Assembly: GCA_027066455.1 (NCBI GenBank)
Contig: JAMONT010000052.1
Span: 1 to 34,438 of the forward strand
Source of the DNA: Candidatus Altimarinota bacterium
Lineage (GTDB): Bacteria; Patescibacteriota; Gracilibacteria; BD1-5; UBA6164
Length of the DNA stretch: 34,438 nt
Direction of reading: 5' to 3'
The translations under genes were made by a program, and so were the position numbers. This document shows positions 1,741-34,372 of this stretch, in pieces. The notes under the pieces were generated by a model that saw only the letters and a program-made list of their open reading frames with translations, made no database searches and had not been told where the DNA came from. Position 1 is the stretch's first letter, and every line of letters begins with the position of its first letter.

Positions 1741-2142
1741 TTACATTTCCCATCAATTAACTAATCATTCTCAAACTATATTACCAGCTCCTTCTTCTGT
1801 AATTTTATATTTTTCATAAATTGCTTTTTTATTCTTATTTTCATTTTCAATTCTTATAATATTGTGTTTTTTAATATCATTTTTATTTAGTCATATTTTT
1901 GTAATATCAACTATCTTGTCTGCTTCTATTTTTGATTTTTTTTCAGCTTCAACTAATTTTTTAAAAATTTCTTTCTTAATTTTAGTAGATAATCATTTTT
2001 CTTTTTTTATATTATTATTTTTAGAAATTTTAGTTTCTTTAATAACTTCTTTTTCATTATTATTTGTAGTTTCAATTTTATTTACTTCTCAATAAGAAAG
2101 TAAAATAAAAACTAAACTTAAAATAATTAATATTTTTTCCAT
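1741..2142 (-). CDS. Secreted Lys-rich coiled protein, unknown
   Basis: The frame encodes 133 residues from the ATG at 2142 to TAA at 1741-1743. The N-terminus (MEKILIILSLVFILLSYG) is a signal peptide nearly identical to that of the 1133-1453 lipoprotein, but it lacks the lipobox cysteine. The rest is rich in Lys, Glu, Asn and Ile, probably helical or coiled, and ends with a more ordered segment (KYKITEEGAGNIVGEGLVNGWEM). Five TGA codons are read as glycine, several in that last segment, which supports it as real coding sequence. I recognise no family. Confidence 0.65.
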
Positions 2143-2164
2143 AATTTTAATTTTTATTATTAAA

Positions 2165-2821
2165 TTATAATTTTTCTAAACTTTTTAAATTAACTAATTC
2201 TTCTAATATTTTTTCAAAATCTTCTAAATTTAAATTACTATTTTCTTTTTTATATATTTCATTTAATTTTTTATACTCTTCTTTCTCTAAAAATGTTGTA
2301 TAACTTCATTTTTTTATTTTTCAAAAAAGCCATAAAAATCAATCTAATTCTTCAAAAGTTACTTGGTATTCTTCTTTTATTTCAAATAATGTTTCATAAA
2401 AATTTTTTGCTGTTATTTTTTTATTAAAAATAGTTTTTGAAGATTTTATAACTAAACTATCATAAATAGGAAAATTAAAATTAGTTAAATAAAAAAAATA
2501 TTTTGAAAAAAATGAGATTGCTTTTTTATTTGATAATCAAAACTTATTTTGTGATATTTCTAAAAATGTATCTTTTCAAATATTTTTAAATAAATTTTTA
2601 AATTTATTTGAGTTAATATATTCAACAATATCATCAATTGCATACTTATTTTTAGATAAATTTGTAGAATACATAAAATCTAAAAATAAAACTGATTTTA
2701 AAATATCTTGGCTATTAAATATTTTTTTTAATATATTTTTAGTTTTTTGTAAATCAGATGTTTTTAAAAAATTACTAGATTTTATAATTAAATTTTTTAT
2801 ATAATCTTTTTCTTTTTTCAT
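2165..2821 (-). CDS. Unknown soluble protein, 218 aa
   Basis: The frame encodes 218 residues from the ATG at 2821 to TAA at 2165-2167. I prefer this start to a TTG twelve codons upstream because it has the A-rich, ATAT-ending context shared by most starts here. Several TGA codons are read as glycine, for example in the segment ELDGFLGLFGKIKKG. The protein looks helical and Lys/Leu/Phe-rich. A central stretch (SKYFFYLTNFNFPIYDS) has a FPIYDS pattern that I have seen in poorly characterised families, but I cannot name it. No signal peptide or membrane segment is visible. Confidence 0.65.
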
Positions 2822-2860
2822 ATTTTTTTTATTTAAATAATTTAAACAGCTAGTCAACAG

Positions 2861-2874
2861 AGGGTTTCAACCCT
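2861..2874. repeat. Short GC-rich palindrome
   Basis: A short inverted repeat (agggtt / aaccct, two bases between the arms) lies between the 218-aa gene and the end of glyRS. It stands out by its G+C against the surrounding AT-rich sequence. It lacks a clear T-tract on either side, so calling it a terminator would be weak. It may be a minimal relative of the GC-rich palindromes found elsewhere in the window. Confidence 0.35.
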
Positions 2875-2895
2875 TTGCTAAATTTTTATAAAAAA

Positions 2896-4287
2896 CTACT
2901 TCAACCTCACTCTCAACCACTCATTCAATTCACTAATTTTCACAATTTCTTGTTCCATACTATCTCTTTCTCTAAGCGTAACATTTCCCTCTTCAAAATT
3001 ATTTGAATCTATTGAAATACAAAATGGAACTCAAATTTCATCCATTCTTGCAAATCTTTTCCCTATTGAACCAACTTCATCATATTCACACATAAAATCT
3101 TCTGAAACTTGAGCATAAATTTGTTTTGCCAAATCTCAAATCTTTTTAACTACTGGTAAAATTGCAACTTTTATTGGAGCAACTCTTGGCTCAAATTTCA
3201 AATAAGCTCTATTATTTTCTTCATCGATTGTATAAGCATCACAAATTGCAGCTAAAGTAATTCTTGATAATCACATTGCTGGCTCAATAACATAAGGCAA
3301 AAATTTCTTATTATTAACAGCATCAAAATAAGCCAAATTTTGTTTAGAAGCTGTCATATGTGACTTTAAATCATAATCTGTTCTATTTGCTAGAGTTTCA
3401 ACTTCTCCCCAACCAAAAGGAAATTTATAATCAAAATCTCAAGCTTGTTTAGAATAATGAGGCAACTCTTCTTTTTTTATTGGAGAAAATCTTATTTTTT
3501 CTGAATCAAGTCAAATTACTTGAGTTAAAAATCTTTCACTTTCATTTTTCCATAATTCAAAAGCTTCATCATCTTCCCCTGGAGTTACAAAATATTCTAT
3601 TTCCATTTGTTCAAATTCTCTTGTTCTAAAAATAAAATTCCCGGGAGTGATTTCATTTCTAAAACTTTTACCAACTTGAGCAATACCAAAAGGCAATTTT
3701 CTTCTAGAAGTTCTAGCAACATTTGCAAAATCTACAAATTGTCATTGAGCTGTTTCTGGTCTTAAATAAGCTAAAGCTGAACCATCTTCAGTAACACCTA
3801 AAAAAGTTTTTAGCATTAAATTAAATTTTTTGATTGGAGTAAATTCTTTCCCTTCACAATCTGGACAAGAAATATTTAATTCTTTTATAATTTCATCAAG
3901 TCTTGTATTTTCTGTTTTATCTCAAGAAAAATCTTTTGGAACTTCTATTTCAGGATTTTTTTCACATAATTCTTCAACTAATTTATCAGCTCTCCATCTA
4001 GCTTTACATTCTTTACAATCCATTAATGGATCAGCAAAACCACCAACATGTCCAGAAGCTTCCCAAACTTTTGGATTCATAATAATTGAGGCATCAATTA
4101 GCATTGTATCAGTTCTTTTTCTAATAAATTCTTTTAGCCAAAGATTTTTAATATTTTCTTTTAATAAACTCCCATAAGGTCCATAATCCCAAGAATTAGC
4201 CAATCCTCAATAAATTTCACTTCAAGGATATACAAAACCTCTATTTTGACATAGGTTTACAATGTCTTTCATTTCTATTTTTTTCAT
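2896..4287 (-). CDS. glyS: Glycyl-tRNA synthetase (dimeric, alpha2 type)
   Basis: This 463-residue class II aminoacyl-tRNA synthetase charges tRNA-Gly in the cytoplasm. The start is typical ([17 protein letters not shown], then NSWDYGPYG), and motif 2 is clear ([14 protein letters not shown], then [11 protein letters not shown]). Two CxxC-type cysteine pairs occur in the insertion, near DCKECKA and around the CEGKE stretch. The length fits the alpha2 GlyRS family. In-frame TGA codons fall at family glycines (for example in SEIYGG). In this organism the enzyme must also charge the tRNA-Gly(UCA) that decodes UGA, so it sits at the core of the recoded system. It starts at ATG 4287 in the A-rich ATATT context and ends in TAG. 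Confidence 0.95.
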
Positions 4288-4315
4288 AATATTTTTTTAT
4301 TGTTAAATTTTAAAT

Positions 4316-4344
4316 TTGACTTTTTAGGTCTTTTTGAATATAAT
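4316..4344 (+). promoter_or_regulatory. Near-consensus sigma70-type promoter
   Basis: TTGACT (4316-4321) and TATAAT (4339-4344) are separated by 17 bases, the best promoter match I found in the window. It points rightward, away from glyRS, and predicts a start near 4351. The only thing downstream before a strong terminator (4395-4434) is about 80 bases without a convincing gene, so the promoter appears to drive a small RNA. Confidence 0.8.
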
Positions 4345-4350
4345 TATTAT

Positions 4351-4434
4351 GTCATTAGTTGAATACTAATACTTAGCACCTATATGGAGCAACCCCTCAA
4401 GAGATTAACTTCTTATCTTGAGGTGATTTTTTTT
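4351..4434 (+). ncRNA. Putative small structured RNA antisense to the glyRS leader region
   Basis: The stretch lies between a near-consensus promoter and an 8-bp terminator. It contains a 5' hairpin (attagt / actaat around 4353-4369), a short single-stranded middle with a GGAGCAACC stretch (4386-4395), and the terminator stem cctcaaga/tcttgagg followed by T9. The predicted RNA of about 84 nt matches no class I can identify (not tRNA, SRP, 6S or tmRNA). It lies in the 146-bp gap between the MazF-like gene and glyRS, on the opposite strand. Its 3' end overlaps the stop codon of the MazF-like gene. Confidence 0.55.
4395..4434 (+). terminator. Strong rho-independent terminator
   Basis: An 8-bp perfect stem (cctcaaga 4395-4402 with tcttgagg 4416-4423) is followed by a T-tract at 4427-4435. 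The T-tract is on the plus strand only, so the terminator serves the small RNA rather than the minus-strand genes. Confidence 0.85.
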
Positions 4435-4886
4435 TATAAACTAAAAACCATTTTTATTTTTTCATTAATTATTTTTAATACATTATTTCAAATAATAGGT
4501 TTAATTTTATTTTTGGTAGAAAGATTATTTATTTTATATAATAGTCTTTTTTTACTTATTACTTTAAATTGATTTAATAAAAGCCTTGATTCTTTTTTTA
4601 ATCAATATTTATTATGATTATTTAATTCAAAATAATATTTTTCAAAATTAGAATTATATCATCAAGAAAATGGTAATACTCAAATTAAATCTCATCATAA
4701 TCATATTGAAACTATCAAAATAGGTCTTGTAAAATCATCATCTTTAGAATTTTCTCATCAAATATTTATTCAAATTTTTGAAATCCAAATTTCTCATTTT
4801 TTTACTATTTTAAATGCTTTTCAATTAAGTTCAATTTCTTGTTTTTGCTTATTCCATTCACTAAACAATTCTTTAGTTTTTTTCAT
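4434..4886 (-). CDS. MazF/PemK-like protein (putative toxin-type RNase)
   Basis: The frame encodes 150 residues from the ATG at 4886. The middle follows the PemK/MazF pattern: KGEIWISKIGINIGGENS, a variable loop, RPILIVSIG, VLPFSGG and a C-terminal strand-helix (ESRLLLNQFKVISKKRLLYKI). MazF proteins are sequence-specific endoribonucleases of type II toxin-antitoxin systems. No antitoxin-like gene precedes it. Instead it follows the isochorismatase-family gene by 14 bases, suggesting co-transcription. It has an N-terminal extension of about 28 residues. It could be an orphan toxin or a domesticated MazF-fold protein. Ten or more TGA codons are read as glycine, several at expected glycine positions. 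Confidence 0.75.
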
Positions 4887-4900
4887 AATATTTTTTTTCA

Positions 4901-5455
4901 TTAAATTATCTTACTTATTTTTTCTAAATTTTTTAAAGAATTTTTATGTGTTTCTATATCTCAAGCAACACAACATTTTTCTAATATAAAACAATTATAA
5001 TCTCTATCATGTCATTCTCTCACAGCTGATTCAATTGCTAAATCAGTTGCAACTCAACAAAAATATAAATCACTAATATTATTTTCTTTTAAAATATTTT
5101 CTAATTCAGTTTTATAAAAAGCACTTACTCTAGTTTTATTTATAATAATATCACTTTCTAAAATATTTAATTCTTTATAAAAATTATTTCACTCAGAATT
5201 TTCTTTAAATATTTCAAATTCATTAGCTTTTCAAAAAAGTGGAGAATTTTTTGGTTGATTAGAATAATCTTGTTTAAATGTTATTTTTACAAAAATTATT
5301 AAATCTCAATTTTTTTTAAATTCTTTTATTTTTTCATTTGTATTAGAAATTATATTATTTTCTAAAGCAAATTTGGCATATCATTTCCCTGCTAATTTTC
5401 ATTCAGGAGAAATAATATCATTTATAAAATCAATAATTATTAATGCTTTTTTCAT
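4901..5455 (-). CDS. Isochorismatase/nicotinamidase-family cysteine hydrolase
   Basis: The frame encodes 184 residues from the ATG at 5455 to TAA at 4901-4903. It has the family's opening strand with the catalytic aspartate (ALIIIDFINDI, Asp9), a middle lysine region (IINKTRVSAFYKTEL), and the nucleophile cysteine in YFCGVATDLAIESAVREG. That Cys-Gly-Val-x-Thr-Asp arrangement is typical of nicotinamidase, isochorismatase and related amidases. Nicotinamide deamidation in NAD salvage is a plausible role, but the substrate cannot be fixed from sequence. The glycine after the nucleophile cysteine is coded by TGA. The MazF-like gene starts 14 bases downstream. Confidence 0.85.
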
Positions 5456-5480
5456 AATGTTTTTTTTAAAAATTAAAATT

Positions 5481-5636
5481 TTATTTATTTATAATATATG
5501 ATTGCTTAATCAAATCTAAAATAAGATATAAATCTTCATTTTTTGAAATTTTTATTTCAGTCTCAGCATTTCAACAATTATGTCATATTTCTTTTATATT
5601 TTTAGTTATATCATTTATTAATCAATACTTTCAATA
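5481..5636 (-). pseudogene. Gene remnant or very short coding fragment without a start
   Basis: A 51-codon open stretch ends in TAA at 5481-5483 and has no ATG, GTG or TTG near its beginning. An in-frame TAA closes it upstream at about 5637. Four TGA codons are read as glycine (for example KEIGHNCGNAETEIKI) and it reads like real protein, so it may be the C-terminal remnant of a lost gene. It fills most of the 212-bp gap between the isochorismatase-family gene and the lipoprotein. No family is recognised. Confidence 0.35.
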
Positions 5637-5667
5637 TTAAAATTAGTTTTAGTTATCTATTAAATAT

Positions 5668-6408
5668 TTAAAGATATAAAAGAATAAAAGTAAGTATTAT
5701 AAATATAATAAATAATATAAAAGCTATTTTAATATATTTTATTCATTTATTTTTTATTATCTTTTTGTTTTCTTCTAATTTATTTTTACTATATACAAGT
5801 AACCATATTCATCTCCAAGTAAGTAATAAAACAAAAAATATTAATAAAAAAAGTATAATATATAACATATCATAGATAGTAGGTTCATAATCATATTGAT
5901 TCTTGTAATTATAAGTAGGTTGAACCATTGCCATTTCTAATTTTGTAAATCAATTTATTTTAAGCCAAGAATCAAAAAGTTCATTATCTTTTATATTCAT
6001 AACTCTCACATTATTATTTGTTCTAGCTACTTCATTAACAAAATCTTTATATTCTAAATCAGCATACATTAAGTATCAAACAGCACATAAATTTCAATTA
6101 CTTCATCTAAAAAATGGAATAATTTTTCAAGGAAATTTATCATTATTTGGAAAATTTCATAATCTAGAATACTCATTTAATAAATCTAATTTTTTTAATC
6201 TATTTTGTTTTTGCTTATCATTTAAATTTGAAGTATCAACTTCTCTAAGAACAGCTTCAACTCTTTCAAAATGCCATTGTAATTTTTCTACTTCATAATT
6301 ATTTCAAACAGAAGAATAATTATGAGGTTGTATTGCTTCTTCACCACATGCAGAGGAAACTGAAATAAATATAAAAAATGTTATTATTAATGATATTATT
6401 CTTTTCAT
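5668..6408 (-). CDS. Membrane-anchored extracytoplasmic protein (probable lipoprotein)
   Basis: The frame encodes 246 residues from the ATG at 6408 to TAA at 5668-5670. The N-terminus MKRIISLIITFFIFISVSSAC is a signal peptide ending in a lipobox-like SSAC, so Cys21 may be lipidated. A polar external domain follows (about residues 22-175, with a second Cys in GNLCAVGYLMYADLEY). Then come two transmembrane segments (around 180-208, YDMLYIILFLLIFFVLLL, and 220-246). No catalytic motif is recognised. It starts 27 bases after the aldo/keto reductase gene and is probably in the same transcript, downstream of the T-box. Confidence 0.7.
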
Positions 6409-6435
6409 AATATTTTTATTAAAAACTAAATTAAA

Positions 6436-7296
6436 TTAACCCAAAGCTATAGTATCACTTTTTTCTACTTTTGCTGAAAAATTATTTTTAAAATTTTCTA
6501 AATCTTCTTGACTCAAATTCCAATTTAATGCTCACAAATTTTCTGAAATATGTTCTAAATTATTACTTTTAAATAAAGTAACTACATTTTCTTGACTAGT
6601 TAGGTAATTTATAGCAACTTGAGCATGAGTTTTTTTGTACTTTGTTGCTATATCAACCAAAACAGAAGTTCAAGAATTCGCTAATTTTCATAATTCAAGA
6701 GGTCTCCAAGCAACAAGTAATACATCATTTTTTTGACAATATTCAAGTAATTCCTGTTCTGGTTCTCTATAAATTAAATTATAATGAACTTGATTTGCTA
6801 CAATTTTATTTTTTGTATAAGATTCAGCTTCTTTCAAACTTTTTAGAGAAAAATTACTAACTCAAATATTTTTAATCAAACCTTCTTCCAAAAGTTCATC
6901 CATAGCTTTCATACAATCTTTCAAATCAAATTGTTTTTCTCTCCAATGAATATAATATAAATCAAGATAATCTAAATTTAATCTTTTTAAAGACTTTTTG
7001 CAAGCCATTTTTATTGCAGAATAACTACAATTTGAACCCTTTACTTTTGAAGCAATTATCAATTTCTTTCTATCATAATTTTTTATAGCTTCTCCAAGAA
7101 TTTCTTCAGCTGAACCAGTTCCATAAAGTTCAGCTGTATCAAAATGAGTTATTCAATTTTTTATTGCAAATTTTATTGCTTCAATATCTTTTGAACTATC
7201 ATAATTTTCTATTTTATGTTTATATCATCACATTGGCCAAGTTCAAAAGCCGAGTTCTGGAAGAAAAAAACCTGATTTTAGTTCTTTATTTTTCAT
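6436..7296 (-). CDS. Aldo/keto reductase
   Basis: The frame encodes 286 residues from the ATG at 7296 to TAA at 6436-6438. This cytoplasmic NAD(P)H-dependent oxidoreductase has a TIM-barrel fold. The complete catalytic tetrad of the family is present at the expected spacing: Asp53 and Tyr58 (FDTAELYG), Lys84 (IIASKVKG) and His117 (DLYYIHW). The C-terminal cofactor-binding part (VTLFKSNNLEHISENLGALN) is also intact. The substrate is unknown. It is the first gene after the T-box riboswitch, so transcription into it should depend on an uncharged tRNA, which is unexpected for this family. The 246-aa lipoprotein gene follows 27 bases later. Confidence 0.9.
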
Positions 7297-7309
7297 AATA
7301 TTTTTTTAA

Positions 7310-7492
7310 AGTAAAATAAAAACCCCAAAAGTAAAAATAATTTTTACTTTTGGGGTTCAAATATTTATTTTGAACGGTTCCACCCAAATTTTTTACTTTA
7401 ATAATAAAAAATATTTTCTAAATTATGCTTTTCCATAACATATTTCAAACAAAAATTCTTTTTATTAACTAAAAATAGTTTATGGAAAAAGC
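7310..7492 (-). promoter_or_regulatory. T-box riboswitch (compact form)
   Basis: Read on the minus strand, three parts occur in order. (1) A long Stem I candidate pairs 7492-7480 with 7438-7427. (2) A T-box core GGGTGGAACCG (7385-7375) sits in a perfect antiterminator: TTTGGG, then the 7-base bulge TGGAACC, then GTTCAAA pairing with TTTGAAC, then CCCAAA. (3) A competing 17-bp terminator (7357-7341 with 7337-7321) shares the CCCAAA strand and is followed by a T-rich tract. This is the mutually exclusive architecture of T-box leaders, in which uncharged tRNA stabilises the antiterminator. TGGA in the bulge pairs with a tRNA ending in UCCA, so a tRNA with discriminator U, in bacteria mainly tRNA-Gly or tRNA-Cys. 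Stem I is short and I cannot fix the specifier triplet. Confidence 0.75.
7321..7357 (-). terminator. 17-bp perfect attenuator hairpin of the T-box leader
   Basis: The arms 7321-7337 and 7341-7357 are perfectly complementary around a 3-base loop. On the minus strand the hairpin is followed by a T-rich tract just before the aldo/keto reductase start (ATG at 7296). It is mutually exclusive with the antiterminator because both use the strand at 7348-7355. Confidence 0.85.
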
Positions 7493-7540
7493 TTTTTTTG
7501 TCAAAAAATAATTTTATTTTTTTATTTTTTCTAAAAAATT

Positions 7541-9349
7541 TTATCCTTTTTTATTTCTTTTTCTTTCTGTTTCAGTTAAATATTTTTTTCTAAGTCTAAT
7601 AGTTTCAGGAGTAATTTCAACATATTCATCTCCAGAAATATAATCAATTGCTTCTTCTAAACTCATTAATTTTGGTGGAGTAAGTTTCAAAGCTTCATCA
7701 GTTCCAGAAGCTCTAACATTTGTTAATTTTTTATTTTTAGTAGCATTAACAGACAAATCTTGACCTTTATTTGATTCACCTAAAATCATACCTTCATATA
7801 TTTCAGTAGCTGGTTTTACAAAAATTGTTCATCTATCTTGTAAATTAAATAATGAATAAGCCATAGTTTTACCATTTTCCATTGAAATCATAGAACCAAC
7901 ATCTCTTTTTTCAATTGGACCTTTATATTCTTCAAATTTATCAAATGAACTAGAAAGTAAACCTTCTCATTTAGTTAAAGTTGTAAATAGTGATTTAAAA
8001 CCTAAAAGTCCTCTAGTTGGAACAGAAAATTCTAAATTAACAATTCCATTATCTTCAATCATATTACTCATCATACCTTTTCTTTTTCCAAGTTCAGCAA
8101 TAACAGTTCATTCAACTCAAGCAGGAACAGAAATAGTAACATTTTCTATTGGTTCCATTTTTTTACCATTTTCTTGATGCATAATAACTACAGGAGCTCA
8201 AACTTGTAATTCAAAACCTTCTCTTCTCATTGTTTCAATCAAAACTGACAAATGTAATTCTCATCTACCAGCAACTTCAAAATTATCTCAAGAACTAAAA
8301 TCAACTTTTAATCAAACATTTGTTTCCATTTCTTTTTCTAATCTATCTCTGATTTGTCTAGAAGTAACAAATTTACCTTCTCTTCAAGCAAAAGGAGAAT
8401 TGTTTACCAAAAATTCCATTTTTAAAGTAGGTTCATCAATTGTAATTGGAGGCATAGCTTTAACAGTTTCATCTTGAGCAATAGTTTCACCAACATAAAT
8501 ATCAGCAATACCAGCAATTGTAATAATATCACCAGCATAAGCTTCTTTAGCTTTTACTTTTTCAAGTCATTCATTAGTTAAAATTTCAGTAATTTTAGCT
8601 TTTCTTTTTGTTCAATCATTAGCAGTAATAACTACTTCTTGTCCTATTTTTATAGTTCATTCATATATTCTACCAATACCTAATCTTCAAAGAAAATTAT
8701 CATAACCAAGATTAGCAATTTGCATTTTAAGTGGAGCTGAAGCATCATTAGTAGCATGTTCAACTTTTTCCATTACAAAATCTAAAAGTGGAGTAATATC
8801 TTTTCTTTCAGGATTTTCATCAGTCCAAGCAAGTCAATCTCTAGCAATTGCATAAATTGGTTGATTTAGATGTTCTAATTGTTCATCAGTTGCTCATAAT
8901 TGAACAAATAAATCAAATAATTGATCTATAACCCAATCAGCTCTAGCAGTTGGTTTATCCATTTTATTAATAACAATAATTGGATGAAGTCCTAATTCTA
9001 AAGATTTTTTAAGTACAAATTTAGTTTGAGGCATAGGACCTTCATAAGCATCAACAACTAAACAAACTGAATCTACAGTTCTAAGTACTCTTTCTACTTC
9101 AGAACCAAAATCAGCATGTCCTGGAGTATCAACAATATTTATTTTATTTCCTTTATAAATAATACCTGTATTTTTTGAATAAATTGTAATACCTCTTTCT
9201 TGTTCTTGAGCATTACTATCCATAGCTCTTTCTTCTAAACCAATTCTTTCATCAAAATTATCACCAGATTTTAAAAGATAATCTACCAAAGTAGTTTTTC
9301 CATGATCAACATGAGCAATAATTGCAATATTTCTATATTCTCTAGACAT
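7541..9349 (-). CDS. typA: TypA/BipA ribosome-associated GTPase
   Basis: The frame encodes 602 residues, the usual family length, from the ATG at 9349 to TAA at 7541-7543. This translational GTPase binds the ribosome and aids assembly and stress adaptation. The GTPase domain is complete: P-loop [12 protein letters not shown], switch I with [25 protein letters not shown], and NKMD for guanine. Further on are the EF-G-like domains and the TypA-specific C-terminal domain ([22 protein letters not shown], then TRGLLGF). Many in-frame TGA codons fall at invariant glycines, for example the first G of GELHLSVL, making this the clearest gene for the recoding. It sits in front of the T-box leader with its own A-rich start context. 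Confidence 0.97.
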
Positions 9350-26222: not shown

Positions 26223-26698
26223 AAATTTTTATATACATTACTATTTTTACCAAAAGTTTTTTGTATATCAAATTTTTTAAAAGGTTTATTATTTCTTTTA
26301 TATTTACCTGTTTTTGGATTAAATTCATAGTTATCATTAAATTCTTGTAACATAAAAATTGAATTATTATTTTTATCTTTAGAATATTCTTCTAATGATT
26401 TATATTCTTTATATTTTTCTTTTAAGATAGAATTTAATTTATTTTTTTGCTTTTTTTCTTTATTTTGAGAATTACCAAAAACTTTTTTATTATATTTTTC
26501 TATATTTTTATAATTATAGTCAGAATAATTTTTATATTGTTCATTTTGGTTCATTTTTTTTACTTGCTTATTATTATATTTTTGTAGTCAATAAAAAAAT
26601 AAATATATAAATATAATTACTGTTATAAGTAAAATAGTTCAAATAATAAAAATTATTTTCCAAAATTTTAGAATTAAATTAAAAAGTTTATCTATCAT
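26219..26698 (-). CDS. Single-pass membrane protein with polar Asn/Lys/Tyr-rich tail
   Basis: The frame encodes 159 residues from the ATG at 26698 to TAA at 26219-26221. I chose this start because the N-terminus supplies a membrane segment (about residues 14-37, IIFIIGTILLITVIIFIYLF), lost if the ATG at 26554 is used, and the upstream frame uses TGA as glycine twice. The rest is a hydrophilic Asn/Lys/Tyr-rich, probably flexible tail. It lies right at the spacer-distal end of the CRISPR array, and its start is about 40 bases from the first repeat. No Cas family is recognised, and neighbourhood alone does not link it to CRISPR. Confidence 0.65.
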
Positions 26699-26740
26699 AA
26701 AAATATATTAAAATTAAAAATATAGTTAACATCAATAACT

Positions 26741-28725
26741 ATCTACAAAAGTAGAAATTTAATATTGTGTTTAAATAGCTAACAAATAAAATACTGTAAG
26801 TTATCTACAAAAGTAGAAATTTAATATTGTGTTTAAATTTTCTTGCATAATTCTTTATTAGTTTCATCTACAAAAGTAGAAATTTAATATTGTGTTTAAA
26901 TGAGAGAATTTAATATAAATATATGTAAATCTACAAAAGTAGAAATTTAATATTGTGTTTAAATAAAAACATATAGAGGTTATAAGATTAATCTACAAAA
27001 GTAGAAATTTAATATTGTGTTTAAATTATAATTTTATAGGGACAATCAGTAAATCTACAAAAGTAGAAATTTAATATTGTGTTTAAATAAAAAAATAATG
27101 GTTATAATATTATACATCTACAAAAGTAGAAATTTAATATTGTGTTTAAATATAATTCTATGATTTCTGTATTGAGCTTATCTACAAAAGTAGAAATTTA
27201 ATATTGTGTTTAAATCAAGAAATAAAAGAAAATAATTTTGAATCTACAAAAGTAGAAATTTAATATTGTGTTTAAATAAAAAGACCTATTCGACGACTGG
27301 GAATTATCTACAAAAGTAGAAATTTAATATTGTGTTTAAATATGAAATTTTTTAAAGAAATTGCAATTATCTACAAAAGTAGAAATTTAATATTGTGTTT
27401 AAATAAGTTCAAACTTTTTTATCTCAATAAAATCTACAAAAGTAGAAATTTAATATTGTGTTTAAATCTCGTCTTTAGCAAGATAAGATTTAAGTATCTA
27501 CAAAAGTAGAAATTTAATATTGTGTTTAAATAAAAAGAATTAATTAAAATTTTCAAATCTACAAAAGTAGAAATTTAATATTGTGTTTAAATATATTTTT
27601 TAGGTTTATATCTATTTCTAATCTACAAAAGTAGAAATTTAATATTGTGTTTAAATTTTCTTTCTGCTTCTTTTTTTGATCTTATCTACAAAAGTAGAAA
27701 TTTAATATTGTGTTTAAATTAATTGGGATAAGTTCAATTAATACAGATCTACAAAAGTAGAAATTTAATATTGTGTTTAAATTAATTGGGATAAGTTCAA
27801 TTAATACAGATCTACAAAAGTAGAAATTTAATATTGTGTTTAAATTAATTGGGATAAGTTCAATTAATACAGATCTACAAAAGTAGAAATTTAATATTGT
27901 GTTTAAATATACAGATGATTTAAAAGCTATCCTTTATCTACAAAAGTAGAAATTTAATATTGTGTTTAAATATCTATTATTTCCCCATCAATAACAGTTA
28001 TCTACAAAAGTAGAAATTTAATATTGTGTTTAAATTTGCATAAAAATATTCCTGATGATGAATCTACAAAAGTAGAAATTTAATATTGTGTTTAAATAAA
28101 TTTCTTGGCTACATCTAGTTTGTAATCTACAAAAGTAGAAATTTAATATTGTGTTTAAATATGAACAAAATTCTATTCATTGATGATCTACAAAAGTAGA
28201 AATTTAATATTGTGTTTAAATAAAGAAATAGCTGATATTATAGCAAAATCTACAAAAGTAGAAATTTAATATTGTGTTTAAATATGGCTACATCATTACA
28301 AGGAGACAAAAATCTACAAAAGTAGAAATTTAATATTGTGTTTAAATAAAAATTAGTACAATAATTAATCTTTTATCTACAAAAGTAGAAATTTAATATT
28401 GTGTTTAAATATTAAAATATATTGTAGGAATCATTTTATCTACAAAAGTAGAAATTTAATATTGTGTTTAAATATTTTATTACAGTTTGATTTGTATGGA
28501 TATCTACAAAAGTAGAAATTTAATATTGTGTTTAAATCTGATTTAGATTTATAATCATAAATTAATCTACAAAAGTAGAAATTTAATATTGTGTTTAAAT
28601 AAAAAAGTAAGGTAAAAGAAATAGGAAATCTACAAAAGTAGAAATTTAATATTGTGTTTAAATAACACAGTCTTTACCTTGTTTGTCTTATCTACAAAAG
28701 TAGAAATTTAATATTGTGTTTAAAT
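26741..28725 (-). CRISPR. Type V-A (Cas12a-class) CRISPR array, 32 repeats, 31 spacers
   Basis: There are 32 copies of a 36-base repeat, highly conserved. On the minus strand the repeat begins ATTTAAACACAATATT and ends AATTTCTACTTTTGTAGAT. That 3' end is the Cas12a direct-repeat hairpin (TCTAC, TTTT, GTAGA), so crRNAs are read on the minus strand and the leader is on the right. I counted 31 spacers of 25-28 bases. Three consecutive spacers (27720-27870 region, repeating taattgggataagttcaatt) are identical. The array is directly downstream of cas1 and cas2, with the usual order of type V-A loci. The effector gene is not in the window. Confidence 0.97.
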
Positions 28726-29048
28726 AGCTGTTTTAGCTAGAATAAGGCCAAAAGATACAAATAAATTATCTTTCAAATTTATGACTTTTGGCTTGTCTAA
28801 CATAATCTTAAAAAATTAAGACTTAGGTTTGCAATTTTTTTTGCATTTTTATCAATTCTTCCTTATTTAAACACAATAAAAAAAGATTTTAATTTTTAAA
28901 CAAAACAATGAAATTTCCACCTTTAATAAAAAATTTTTATTAAAAGTTTTTTCAAGAGAATTTTAAAGAATAGTTTTAAAAAAAATAATTTATTTAAAAC
29001 TTTTACAAAACCATTGTATATTAAAAAGCTAAAAAATCAAAATTTTTT
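28726..29048. promoter_or_regulatory. CRISPR leader region
   Basis: This 323-bp non-coding stretch separates cas2 from the first (leader-proximal) repeat. Next to the repeat is a palindrome agct...agct (28726-28738), then a long hairpin with arms gccaaaag / cttttggc enclosing 28752-28793. A 14-base piece of the repeat lies further in, at about 28866-28879 (atttaaacacaata), in the opposite orientation to the array repeats on the plus strand. The stretch is AT-rich like a typical leader. I see no clear promoter, and no gene. Confidence 0.7.
28747..28797. repeat. Long imperfect inverted repeat in the CRISPR leader
   Basis: The arms gccaaaag (28752-28759) and cttttggc (28786-28793) enclose a partly paired inner region with aataaatt and aatttat. 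The hairpin would form in transcripts of either strand just upstream of the leader-proximal repeat, at the position where integration proteins act. Confidence 0.6.
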
Positions 29049-29327
29049 TTATAAAAATAAAATTTCCTCTTCCTCCATTGCTGGTTGTCCATATCTAATC
29101 ACCTTTTCACTATGTGCTTTTGAAATTGGAATTATTAAAATACTGTCAGCTCAAGAAAATTTTGGTGCAAAAGTCATTTCAATTTCTGTAATTAAAATAT
29201 TCAAAATTCTCTGAGAATTTTTTATTTCATAAACACTATATTGTAACATTCTTCCAAATTTTTTTAATAATCTAGAAAATTTAGCTCTAACTTTATCATC
29301 AGAAATATCATATGTAACTATTAACAT
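29049..29327 (-). CDS. cas2: CRISPR-associated endonuclease Cas2
   Basis: The frame encodes 92 residues from the ATG at 29327 to TAA at 29049-29051. The family start is clear: MLIVTYDISDDKVRAKFSRLLKKFGRMLQYSVYEI, given here as overlapping pieces MLIVTYDISDDKVR and FGRMLQYSVYEI. Asp7 is in the conserved strand, followed by the ferredoxin-like fold. Cas2 forms the adaptation complex with Cas1 and binds the new spacer DNA. It is 66 bases downstream of cas1, with a GC-rich palindrome in between, and 323 bases upstream of the array. Length is as expected, and only one TGA (in APKFSGADS) is used. Confidence 0.95.
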
Positions 29328-29354
29328 TTTTTTTAAATTAAAAAAAATAAATTA

Positions 29355-29391
29355 CTCCTTTCTCCCTTGGGGGAAAGGCTGGGATAGGGGG
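29355..29391. repeat. GC-rich palindrome between cas1 and cas2
   Basis: The stretch starts ctcctttctcccttggggga and ends ggataggggg, with a stem cctttctccc / gggggaaagg. It is one of at least five GC-rich palindromic elements in this window and lies in the short cas1-cas2 gap. It could act as a terminator or processing site between the two genes. Confidence 0.7.
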
Positions 29392-29393
29392 AA

Positions 29394-30353
29394 TTATATC
29401 TCAAACTTCGGAAATTCTTTTCTTCATTTCATAAAAAATTTATAATAATCTTTTATGAAAAAAAACATTTCTTTTTTATTATTCATAATTGCTTTCAAAA
29501 AAACCCCTGAATATTTTTTTGAATTCTGCCACGGTAAAATATATGCTCCATTTTGAAAACTAAAATCTTTAGGATTTATTTGCTTCAAATTATAAGCTTT
29601 CAACAATTCCCTGTCAATTATACACCTAAAAGGCTCCATCAAATCAAGGGCTAAACTTTTTCTAGAATACCAAGTTCTATGATAAACTCAATAATAATTA
29701 TCAAATCAATAAAGTCTCAAAAGTGCTTCAATAAAATGAAATAAATAAGTATATCAAATATCTAAAAGCAAATTTTGAATATCTCTTTTTGTCCTCGGTT
29801 CCCTTCTCTCCCATCAAATTGGTCAAAAATAATTTCCAAAAAATAATTTTGCCACATTTCATTCATAACCCAAAAGACTTTCATAATTTGTAGATTCAGG
29901 AATTTTTTTAATTATTTCTTTTATTTTTTCAATATCTCTTTTTATAAACCACTGCTTTTCTCTAATATTTTTAAGTAATTTTAACTGATTATTTGTTTTT
30001 AATAAAACTATATTTTTAGCTATTTCAAGCATTTCCTCTTCTGTTTTTTCATATTGTTTTTTTCTCAAAACAAAATTTCATTCAGTTTCATTTCAAATAA
30101 CTAAATAAGGTAAAAAATTTTTTTTTAGCAAAATTAAAGTAACTCAAAATTCTTGAAATTTTCTTATTAAAACACTTGTAATTGTAGTTTCTCAAATTAA
30201 AAAAATAGTAAATATTTTATATAAACTTACTTTATTTTTTATTTTTCAATTTTCTTTTATAACAAGATTTTCATTTTGAAAATTAATATTTTTTGCATCA
30301 AAACTTTCTATAAAAAGAATTTGTTTTTCATCAAAATCTGGAAATTGTAGCAT
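29394..30353 (-). CDS. cas1: CRISPR-associated endonuclease Cas1
   Basis: The frame encodes 319 residues, the usual length, from the ATG at 30353 to TAA at 29394-29396. Cas1 is the metal-dependent integrase of spacer acquisition, acting with Cas2. It has the N-terminal beta domain (about 1-90) and the helical domain with the metal ligands: Glu in LLGYEGNVAKLFFG, His in GVYHRTWYSRKSLALDLMEP and the acidic residue of LDLMEPFRCIID. Glycines, for example GYEG, include TGA codons. cas2 lies just downstream. The gap on the other side (30441-33711) holds the membrane and two-component genes, separating cas1 from cas4. Confidence 0.96.
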
Positions 30354-33766: not shown

Positions 33767-34372
33767 TTAATCAAATAATTTTAATTGAGGATAAACTTCT
33801 CAAATATAATAATCACAAAGTTCTCTATAAATGCATTTTAAGCATTTTTGTGTATTTTGCCTAAAATTTTTTTGTAATAAATCAAAATTTTTATATTCTT
33901 TTAAAATTTTTTGAAATTTCAATAATTGCATATCATTTGGCTTATAAATTCTATATTTTTTATTATCTTTTACTGAATAAATCCACAAACTTTGTACATT
34001 ATATCACATTTCTTGCAGACAAAACATTTGTCACCAAAGTTGATATTTTTGTCATAAATAAATTTTTGGTTTTCATTCTTTATCTAAAAAAATTTTAGTT
34101 TTTCTTTCAATTAATTCTTCAGTTTTTGTATTAAAAATATCTATTTTTCAGGCAATTTGGTAAAATTCTGAGTAAACTGACATTGCTTGTAAAATATGTT
34201 TTGAGCTTGAATAAGTTTTATTATCTACTTTTTCGTGAATTTTAGTTCCCTCTTTTTGGGCTTTTTCCTGATAAATATTTTTTTCATAACTATCATAAAG
34301 TGTATGATAATAAATTGATTTTGGGCAAAAAATAAAATCATTGAGAGTTGAGAGTTTGATATAGTTTTCCAT
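33767..34372 (-). CDS. cas4: CRISPR-associated exonuclease Cas4
   Basis: The frame encodes 201 residues from the ATG at 34372 to TAA at 33767-33769. Cas4 trims and selects PAM-bearing prespacers for Cas1-Cas2. The Fe-S cysteines are in place: Cys16 (DFIFCPKSIYYHTLYDS) and Cys177, Cys180 and Cys186 (QKCLKCIYRELCDYY). The RecB-like nuclease motifs are GKIDIF, EELIERKTKIF and YQLWGQMFCLQEMGYNV. Glycines in GKID and YQLWGQ are TGA-coded. It is separated from cas1 by 3.4 kb, the two-component cassette in between being on the opposite strand. A terminator-like stem lies just upstream (34388-34422), so it may be transcribed independently. Confidence 0.95.

Follow-up and report, generated by a model that had tools for sequence, protein, structure and literature searches.

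T-box riboswitches have been described mainly from Gram-positive bacteria. For those that act on transcription, a long Stem I bearing a tRNA-elbow module is generally required, whereas a specifier in the apical loop goes with a short Stem I, as in the translational T-boxes of Actinobacteria, which need Stem II (PMC7583486). In known T-boxes, a G-U pair at the end of helix A2, next to the bulge, is the proposed amino acid sensor (PMC7583486). Here we describe a leader on the minus strand of a 34,438-nucleotide stretch of DNA (the window) from Gracilibacteria, and compare it with these systems. It shares with the glyQS/glyS T-box of Bacillota (RF00230) the core, the 7-base bulge, the overlapping terminator, the glycine specifier, the lack of Stem II and glycyl-tRNA synthetase as the target; the core is also present at the Clostridium glyS loci that we found. 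In the Bacillota system, however, the specifier occupies a side bulge of a long Stem I, below the distal tRNA-elbow module, whereas the present leader has no long Stem I and carries its specifier apically; the pair next to the bulge is G-U there and G-C in 45/48 leaders here, and the Rfam score lies far below threshold. As far as PMC7583486 outlines it, citing Sherwood 2015, the translational ileS T-box of Actinobacteria with an ultrashort Stem I has in common with our leader the apical-loop specifier, the short Stem I and the absence of an elbow module. That T-box sequesters the ribosome-binding site, controls translation and depends on Stem II, in contrast to the terminator, the lack of Stem II and the glycine tRNA found or predicted here. 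What is new is that a T-box linked to a terminator has neither a long Stem I (no elbow module) nor Stem II, and has G-C next to the bulge.

Judging from sequence, we consider it highly probable (about 0.9) that the leader is a compact transcription-attenuating T-box riboswitch, which reads tRNA-Gly and raises glyS expression when this tRNA is uncharged; that it binds tRNA, senses the amino acid and antiterminates is deduced from its anatomy. A long Stem I is said to be required if transcriptional T-boxes are to capture the tRNA fast enough; the class described here is conserved and lacks it. How little tRNA-sensing attenuation requires becomes directly testable, in very small, largely uncultured bacteria whose genetic code is altered. 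In these bacteria UGA means glycine, and the switch, if the model is true, senses the tRNA of that very amino acid.

Architecture of the leader

The source of the window belongs to the Gracilibacteria (Patescibacteria, genetic code 25): long open reading frames in the window are open only with UGA read as glycine, glyS itself contains nine UGA codons, and the nearest named relatives of the glycyl-tRNA synthetase are 'Candidatus Gracilibacteria', with 78% identity. The leader is flanked by typA (7541-9349) on one side and by an aldo/keto reductase gene (6436-7296) on the other. A T-box core had been noticed here in the first-pass annotation, and we could confirm it as UGGGUGGAACCGUUC, with the strand corrected to minus; GGGTGGNACCG occurs a single time in the genome. 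The annotation had also suggested looking for the same leader in relatives, which yielded 48 Gracilibacteria leaders, gathered by pattern searches over relatives and by reading the regions upstream of glyS; about 10 further leaders built alike were recognised by eye. The features of the window leader are as follows.

7477-7504, minus strand: promoter, TTGACA (7504-7499), 16-base spacer, TAAACT (7482-7477); same place and spacing in relatives
7398-7468, minus strand: Stem I, in which a 5' asymmetric bulge separates a long lower helix rich in A/U (about 7468-7451 with 7418-7398) from the specifier hairpin
7422-7444, minus strand: specifier hairpin, five contiguous pairs (7442-7438 with 7428-7424) and the 9-base apical loop UAUGGAAAA (7437-7429); from covariation and arm swapping
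7432-7434, minus strand: specifier codon GGA (glycine), followed by A7431; GG invariant in the leaders, codon matching tRNA-Gly(UCC)
7387-7399, minus strand: purine-rich linker AAAGUAAAAAAUU in the place of Stem III, vestigial in the window and a true hairpin in many relatives
7349-7388, minus strand: antiterminator, A1 (7388-7383 with 7354-7349), bulge UGGAACC (7382-7376), A2 (7375-7369 with 7361-7355); predicted fold, conserved in relatives
7316-7358, minus strand: intrinsic terminator, 18 pairs (7358-7341 with 7337-7320), 3-base loop and T run; from the fold, the sole such minus-strand site in 2000-7700

In the relatives, -35- and -10-like hexamers stand at the same place, often 16 bases apart (TTGATT-16-TAAACT in L004 and TTGCAA-16-TAAACT in L087), and transcription in the window would start near 7470. 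Stem I had been called short in the first-pass annotation, and short it is, at 7468-7398; the helix implied there, GCTTTTTCCATAA at 7492-7480 with 7438-7427, was the wrong one and was rejected. Its 5' arm falls mostly in the 16-base promoter spacer, between -35 and -10, and, since the place of the promoter recurs in relatives, this arm is probably not transcribed. Were this 12-bp helix nevertheless Stem I, it would hide GGA, and specificity would have to lie elsewhere, for example in the UGA of UUUGAAA read by a tRNA-Gly(UCA). The two arms are indeed complementary over 12 bases, with one base bulged, but the 5' arm takes up part of the spacer and reaches into the beginning of the -10 hexamer, the region is promoter in the relatives, and UGA is absent from their conserved loop, so that we give this arrangement next to no credence. 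UGA (glycine here) was likewise rejected as the specifier, as the conserved apical loop holds GGN.

The antiterminator with its 7-base bulge, also seen in the first pass, was found again in the window, and the bulge is conserved in all 43 aligned leaders (pattern UGGNACC between A1 and A2). The 5' arm of the terminator overlaps the 3' side of the antiterminator at 7358-7349, and the two are therefore mutually exclusive, as had been proposed, although the terminator helix measures 18 bp instead of 17 bp. Terminator-like hairpins are present in the leaders of the relatives as well. When the transcript was cut at 7349, before the 3' arm of the terminator, the predicted fold comprised Stem I with the specifier hairpin and the antiterminator; for the full leader, the terminator fold was calculated at -38.6 kcal/mol, as compared with -28.8 kcal/mol with the antiterminator enforced. 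Folding and a comparison with RF00230 had both been proposed as checks: the whole leader gave z = -5.0 against shuffles, and RF00230 scored it at 22.6 bits, below the gathering score of 93. The flanking purines RRRxG-StemIII-AA showed a by-eye fit (AAGUG ... GGAA) in leaders with a true Stem III. The base pair at the A2 end next to the bulge is G-C in 45 of the 48 leaders and G-U in three; 13 of the 48 (those with A1 ending in CCCT) were read by eye from the sequences.

A different reading is that the leader is a constitutive attenuator whose one working part is the terminator, the T-box core having decayed into a relic. The weak specifier hairpin and the vestigial Stem III of the window would suit such decay, but the bulge, A1, A2, the specifier loop and the lower helix of Stem I are all intact in the window and conserved in relatives, and the antiterminator is predicted to form when the 3' arm of the terminator is missing. 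We regard a constitutive attenuator as extremely unlikely and retain the T-box reading.

Stem I, the specifier and the matching tRNA

The apical specifier loop is mostly 8-9 bases long across the leaders and contains UGG-N, with UGG invariant. N is A in 34 leaders, C in 7, U in 4 and G in 3, and the base after it is A in 47/48; because only the frame GGN keeps one amino acid as N varies, the specifier would be GGN, glycine. The hairpin that carries it is weak in the window when folded alone (-1.1 kcal/mol, only five contiguous pairs). Its covariation was assessed in two alignments, in which 46 and 33 cells were changed on both sides, with 86% and 91% paired; none of 500 shuffles was as good, and the structure fell apart when slid by 1-3 columns. 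In the specifier hairpin as in the lower helix, pairing was poorer when arms were swapped between genomes (0/5000 each), the lower helix being tested on 43 non-redundant leaders. Since one MAFFT alignment of whole leaders misplaced the hairpin arms, we aligned the hairpin separately for two classes of loop length, leaving out L047 and L064 (poor fit) and L053 (near-duplicate). In leaders with more than one UGG, the hairpin was chosen by pairing, which introduces a small bias into the arm-swap test. Stem I ends in the specifier loop, the distal interdigitated T-loop module (tRNA elbow) being absent, and the interval from Stem I to Stem III is too short for Stem II. Looked over for a kink-turn at the foot of Stem I, the leaders showed a 5' asymmetric bulge, with a UGA ... 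GA motif in part of them only.

The only tRNA-Gly detected in the genome of the window is tRNA-Gly(UCC), which has U73 and ends in UCCA, fitting the UGGA of the bulge. Among the tRNAs read in this genome, U73 is confined to Gly(UCC), Thr and Cys, and the specifier loop contains neither a Thr nor a Cys codon; bulge and loop together point to tRNA-Gly. In neighbouring families, three genomes in which the specifier is GGC carry tRNA-Gly(GCC) alongside tRNA-Gly(UCC). Some family members in which tRNA-Gly(UCC) was the only glycine tRNA detected have GGU or GGG as the specifier, and one has GGC; wobble pairing would be needed there, which suggests, from few genomes of which some are incomplete, that wobble at the specifier is tolerated. 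None of the weak tRNA candidates in the window's own genome was a tRNA-Gly(UCA). We noticed in another genome (G049) a tRNA with anticodon UCA and U73 (L274:1403-1481; called SeC by ARAGORN) that adjoins a tRNA-Gly(GCC) and is probably the code-25 tRNA-Gly(UCA); no such UCA tRNA was found in the window's own assembly.

In the mechanism that we propose, transcription from the promoter at 7504-7477 would yield a leader of about 150 nt, in which Stem I displays GGA in its 9-base apical loop and is followed by the vestigial Stem III, the antiterminator and the overlapping terminator. Uncharged tRNA-Gly(UCC) would pair through its anticodon with GGA and through its UCCA end with UGGA; with the antiterminator held in this way, RNA polymerase would read on into the reductase gene and glyS. 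Glycyl-tRNA would be unable to hold the antiterminator, and the terminator would form and stop transcription. Uncharged glycine tRNA would in this manner raise glycyl-tRNA synthetase, the four genes in between being carried along. Several points speak against this model, namely the lack of an Rfam match over the gathering score, the weak specifier hairpin of the window, the absence of an elbow module and of Stem II, the GGU and GGG specifiers that would call for wobble, and the long way to glyS with its gap of 146 bases after the PemK-like gene. Going one step further, we lean slightly towards the hypothesis that this minimal transcriptional T-box works throughout the order by the apical-loop codon alone, without elbow module or Stem II. 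The G-C pair would then mean that a G-U steric sensor is not needed, and the third codon base would be free in genomes with tRNA-Gly(UCC) as the single glycine tRNA, wobble being tolerated, unlike in known T-boxes.

glyS and the other genes behind the leader

The genes that follow the leader are listed below; an aldo/keto reductase gene in first place and a lipoprotein-like one in second had been correctly read in the first pass.

6436-7296, minus strand: operon gene 1, aldo/keto reductase (Pfam PF00248, 3e-65)
5668-6408, minus strand: operon gene 2, lipoprotein/membrane-like protein, no Pfam match
4901-5455, minus strand: operon gene 3, isochorismatase-fold protein (Pfam PF00857, 4.7e-38)
4434-4901, minus strand: operon gene 4, PemK/MazF-like protein (Pfam PF02452, 2.6e-05, just over the cut-off)
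2896-4287, minus strand: operon gene 5, glycyl-tRNA synthetase (glyS), the conserved target (Pfam PF00587 and PF03129)

The first-pass annotation made no mention of glyS and took the T-box to control the aldo/keto reductase. We found that the downstream gene shared by the leaders is glyS, which follows on the same strand in 48/48, usually directly adjacent; at four loci too short to hold it, its position was taken from genome coordinates. The distance from leader to glyS is below 200 bases in about two thirds of the leaders, and the 3.1 kb in the window is the longest. Besides the terminator of the T-box itself, no minus-strand terminator-like site was found in 2000-7700, which makes transcription from the leader through about 3 kb into glyS plausible. 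Since the genes between leader and glyS differ from genome to genome, the reductase is best seen as a passenger in a glyS operon. Control chiefly of the reductase, with glyS there by coincidence or served by its own promoter, would agree with the reductase being the first gene, with the distance of glyS and the 146-base gap that separates it from the PemK-like gene, and with a weak promoter-like match near 4314. We judge it very unlikely, as glyS is common to all 48 leaders, mostly so close that no room is left for a reductase, the specifier reads glycine, and no minus-strand terminator-like site separates the genes.

A PemK/MazF-like gene between T-box and glyS was also seen in one other genome (L012:2923-3387, genome G036). 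Directly upstream of glyS in the window, at 4288-4440 (minus strand), there is a stable hairpin, CCTCAAGA...TCTTGAGG, with a z of only -2.0.

Occurrence in Gracilibacteria and other Patescibacteria

The compact leader before glyS spans the whole bacterial order. Of 48 genomes of the family, 43 yielded glyS, and 41 of these 43 have a T-box near it; no T-box appeared in the stretch examined near glyS in G033 and G011. No T-box was seen in the regions upstream of glyS in Peregrinibacteria, Peribacteria and several other Patescibacteria. Two glyS T-boxes, in L105 (genome G062) and L055 (genome G055), are apparently without Stem I, promoter-like hexamers standing just before Stem III and the antiterminator; they might sense tRNA with no codon being read. 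The bulge of L055 reads UGGG, despite the U73 of its tRNA-Gly.

In a tree of GlyRS, the Gracilibacteria formed one clade (100/100) that was joined by Bacillota, Mycoplasma and a small number of others (99/97); the remaining Patescibacteria in the sample stood apart. The T-box and glyS may have been acquired as a unit by transfer, Stem I becoming shorter afterwards. T-box pattern matches were obtained in 39 of 380 sampled Patescibacteria genomes, far above the reversed control, some of them being due to chance. T-box-like leaders were seen sporadically before thrS, glyS and leuS- or ileS-like genes in other Patescibacteria (L232-L236, L240-L245, L247, L248), several with an apparently longer Stem I. 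They resemble the present leader in having the core upstream of synthetase genes; several of them look longer, such as those of thrS in L232-L236, and their glyS with a T-box stands elsewhere in the GlyRS tree.

An Rfam scan of the window at the gathering threshold gave no match, nor did a search of its own genome with RF00230, and a set of relatives was unmatched or below threshold with the same model. The compact class is nearly invisible to Rfam; with switches of this kind escaping the standard model, the number of T-boxes in Patescibacteria has probably been underestimated. We found no paper joining T-boxes with the Candidate Phyla Radiation or Gracilibacteria in a search that stopped short of subscription papers and the TBDB tables, and provisionally regard T-boxes in Gracilibacteria as undescribed. 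Our data support the earlier view of a compact T-box in a code-25 genome of the CPR type (Patescibacteria); its being possibly undescribed holds for the literature searched, T-box-like leaders being seen in other Patescibacteria nonetheless.

Elsewhere in the window, a CRISPR array with a spacing of about 63 bases extends over 26698-28727, with linked features at 29049-30353 and 33767-34372. cas2 and cas1 lie near the array and a cas4-like gene further off; no effector gene for it was seen in the window. Near 27704-27909, at least two adjacent spacers have the same sequence. The repeat ends, on the opposite strand, in AATTTCTACTTTTGTAGAT, which we take to be Cas12a-like.
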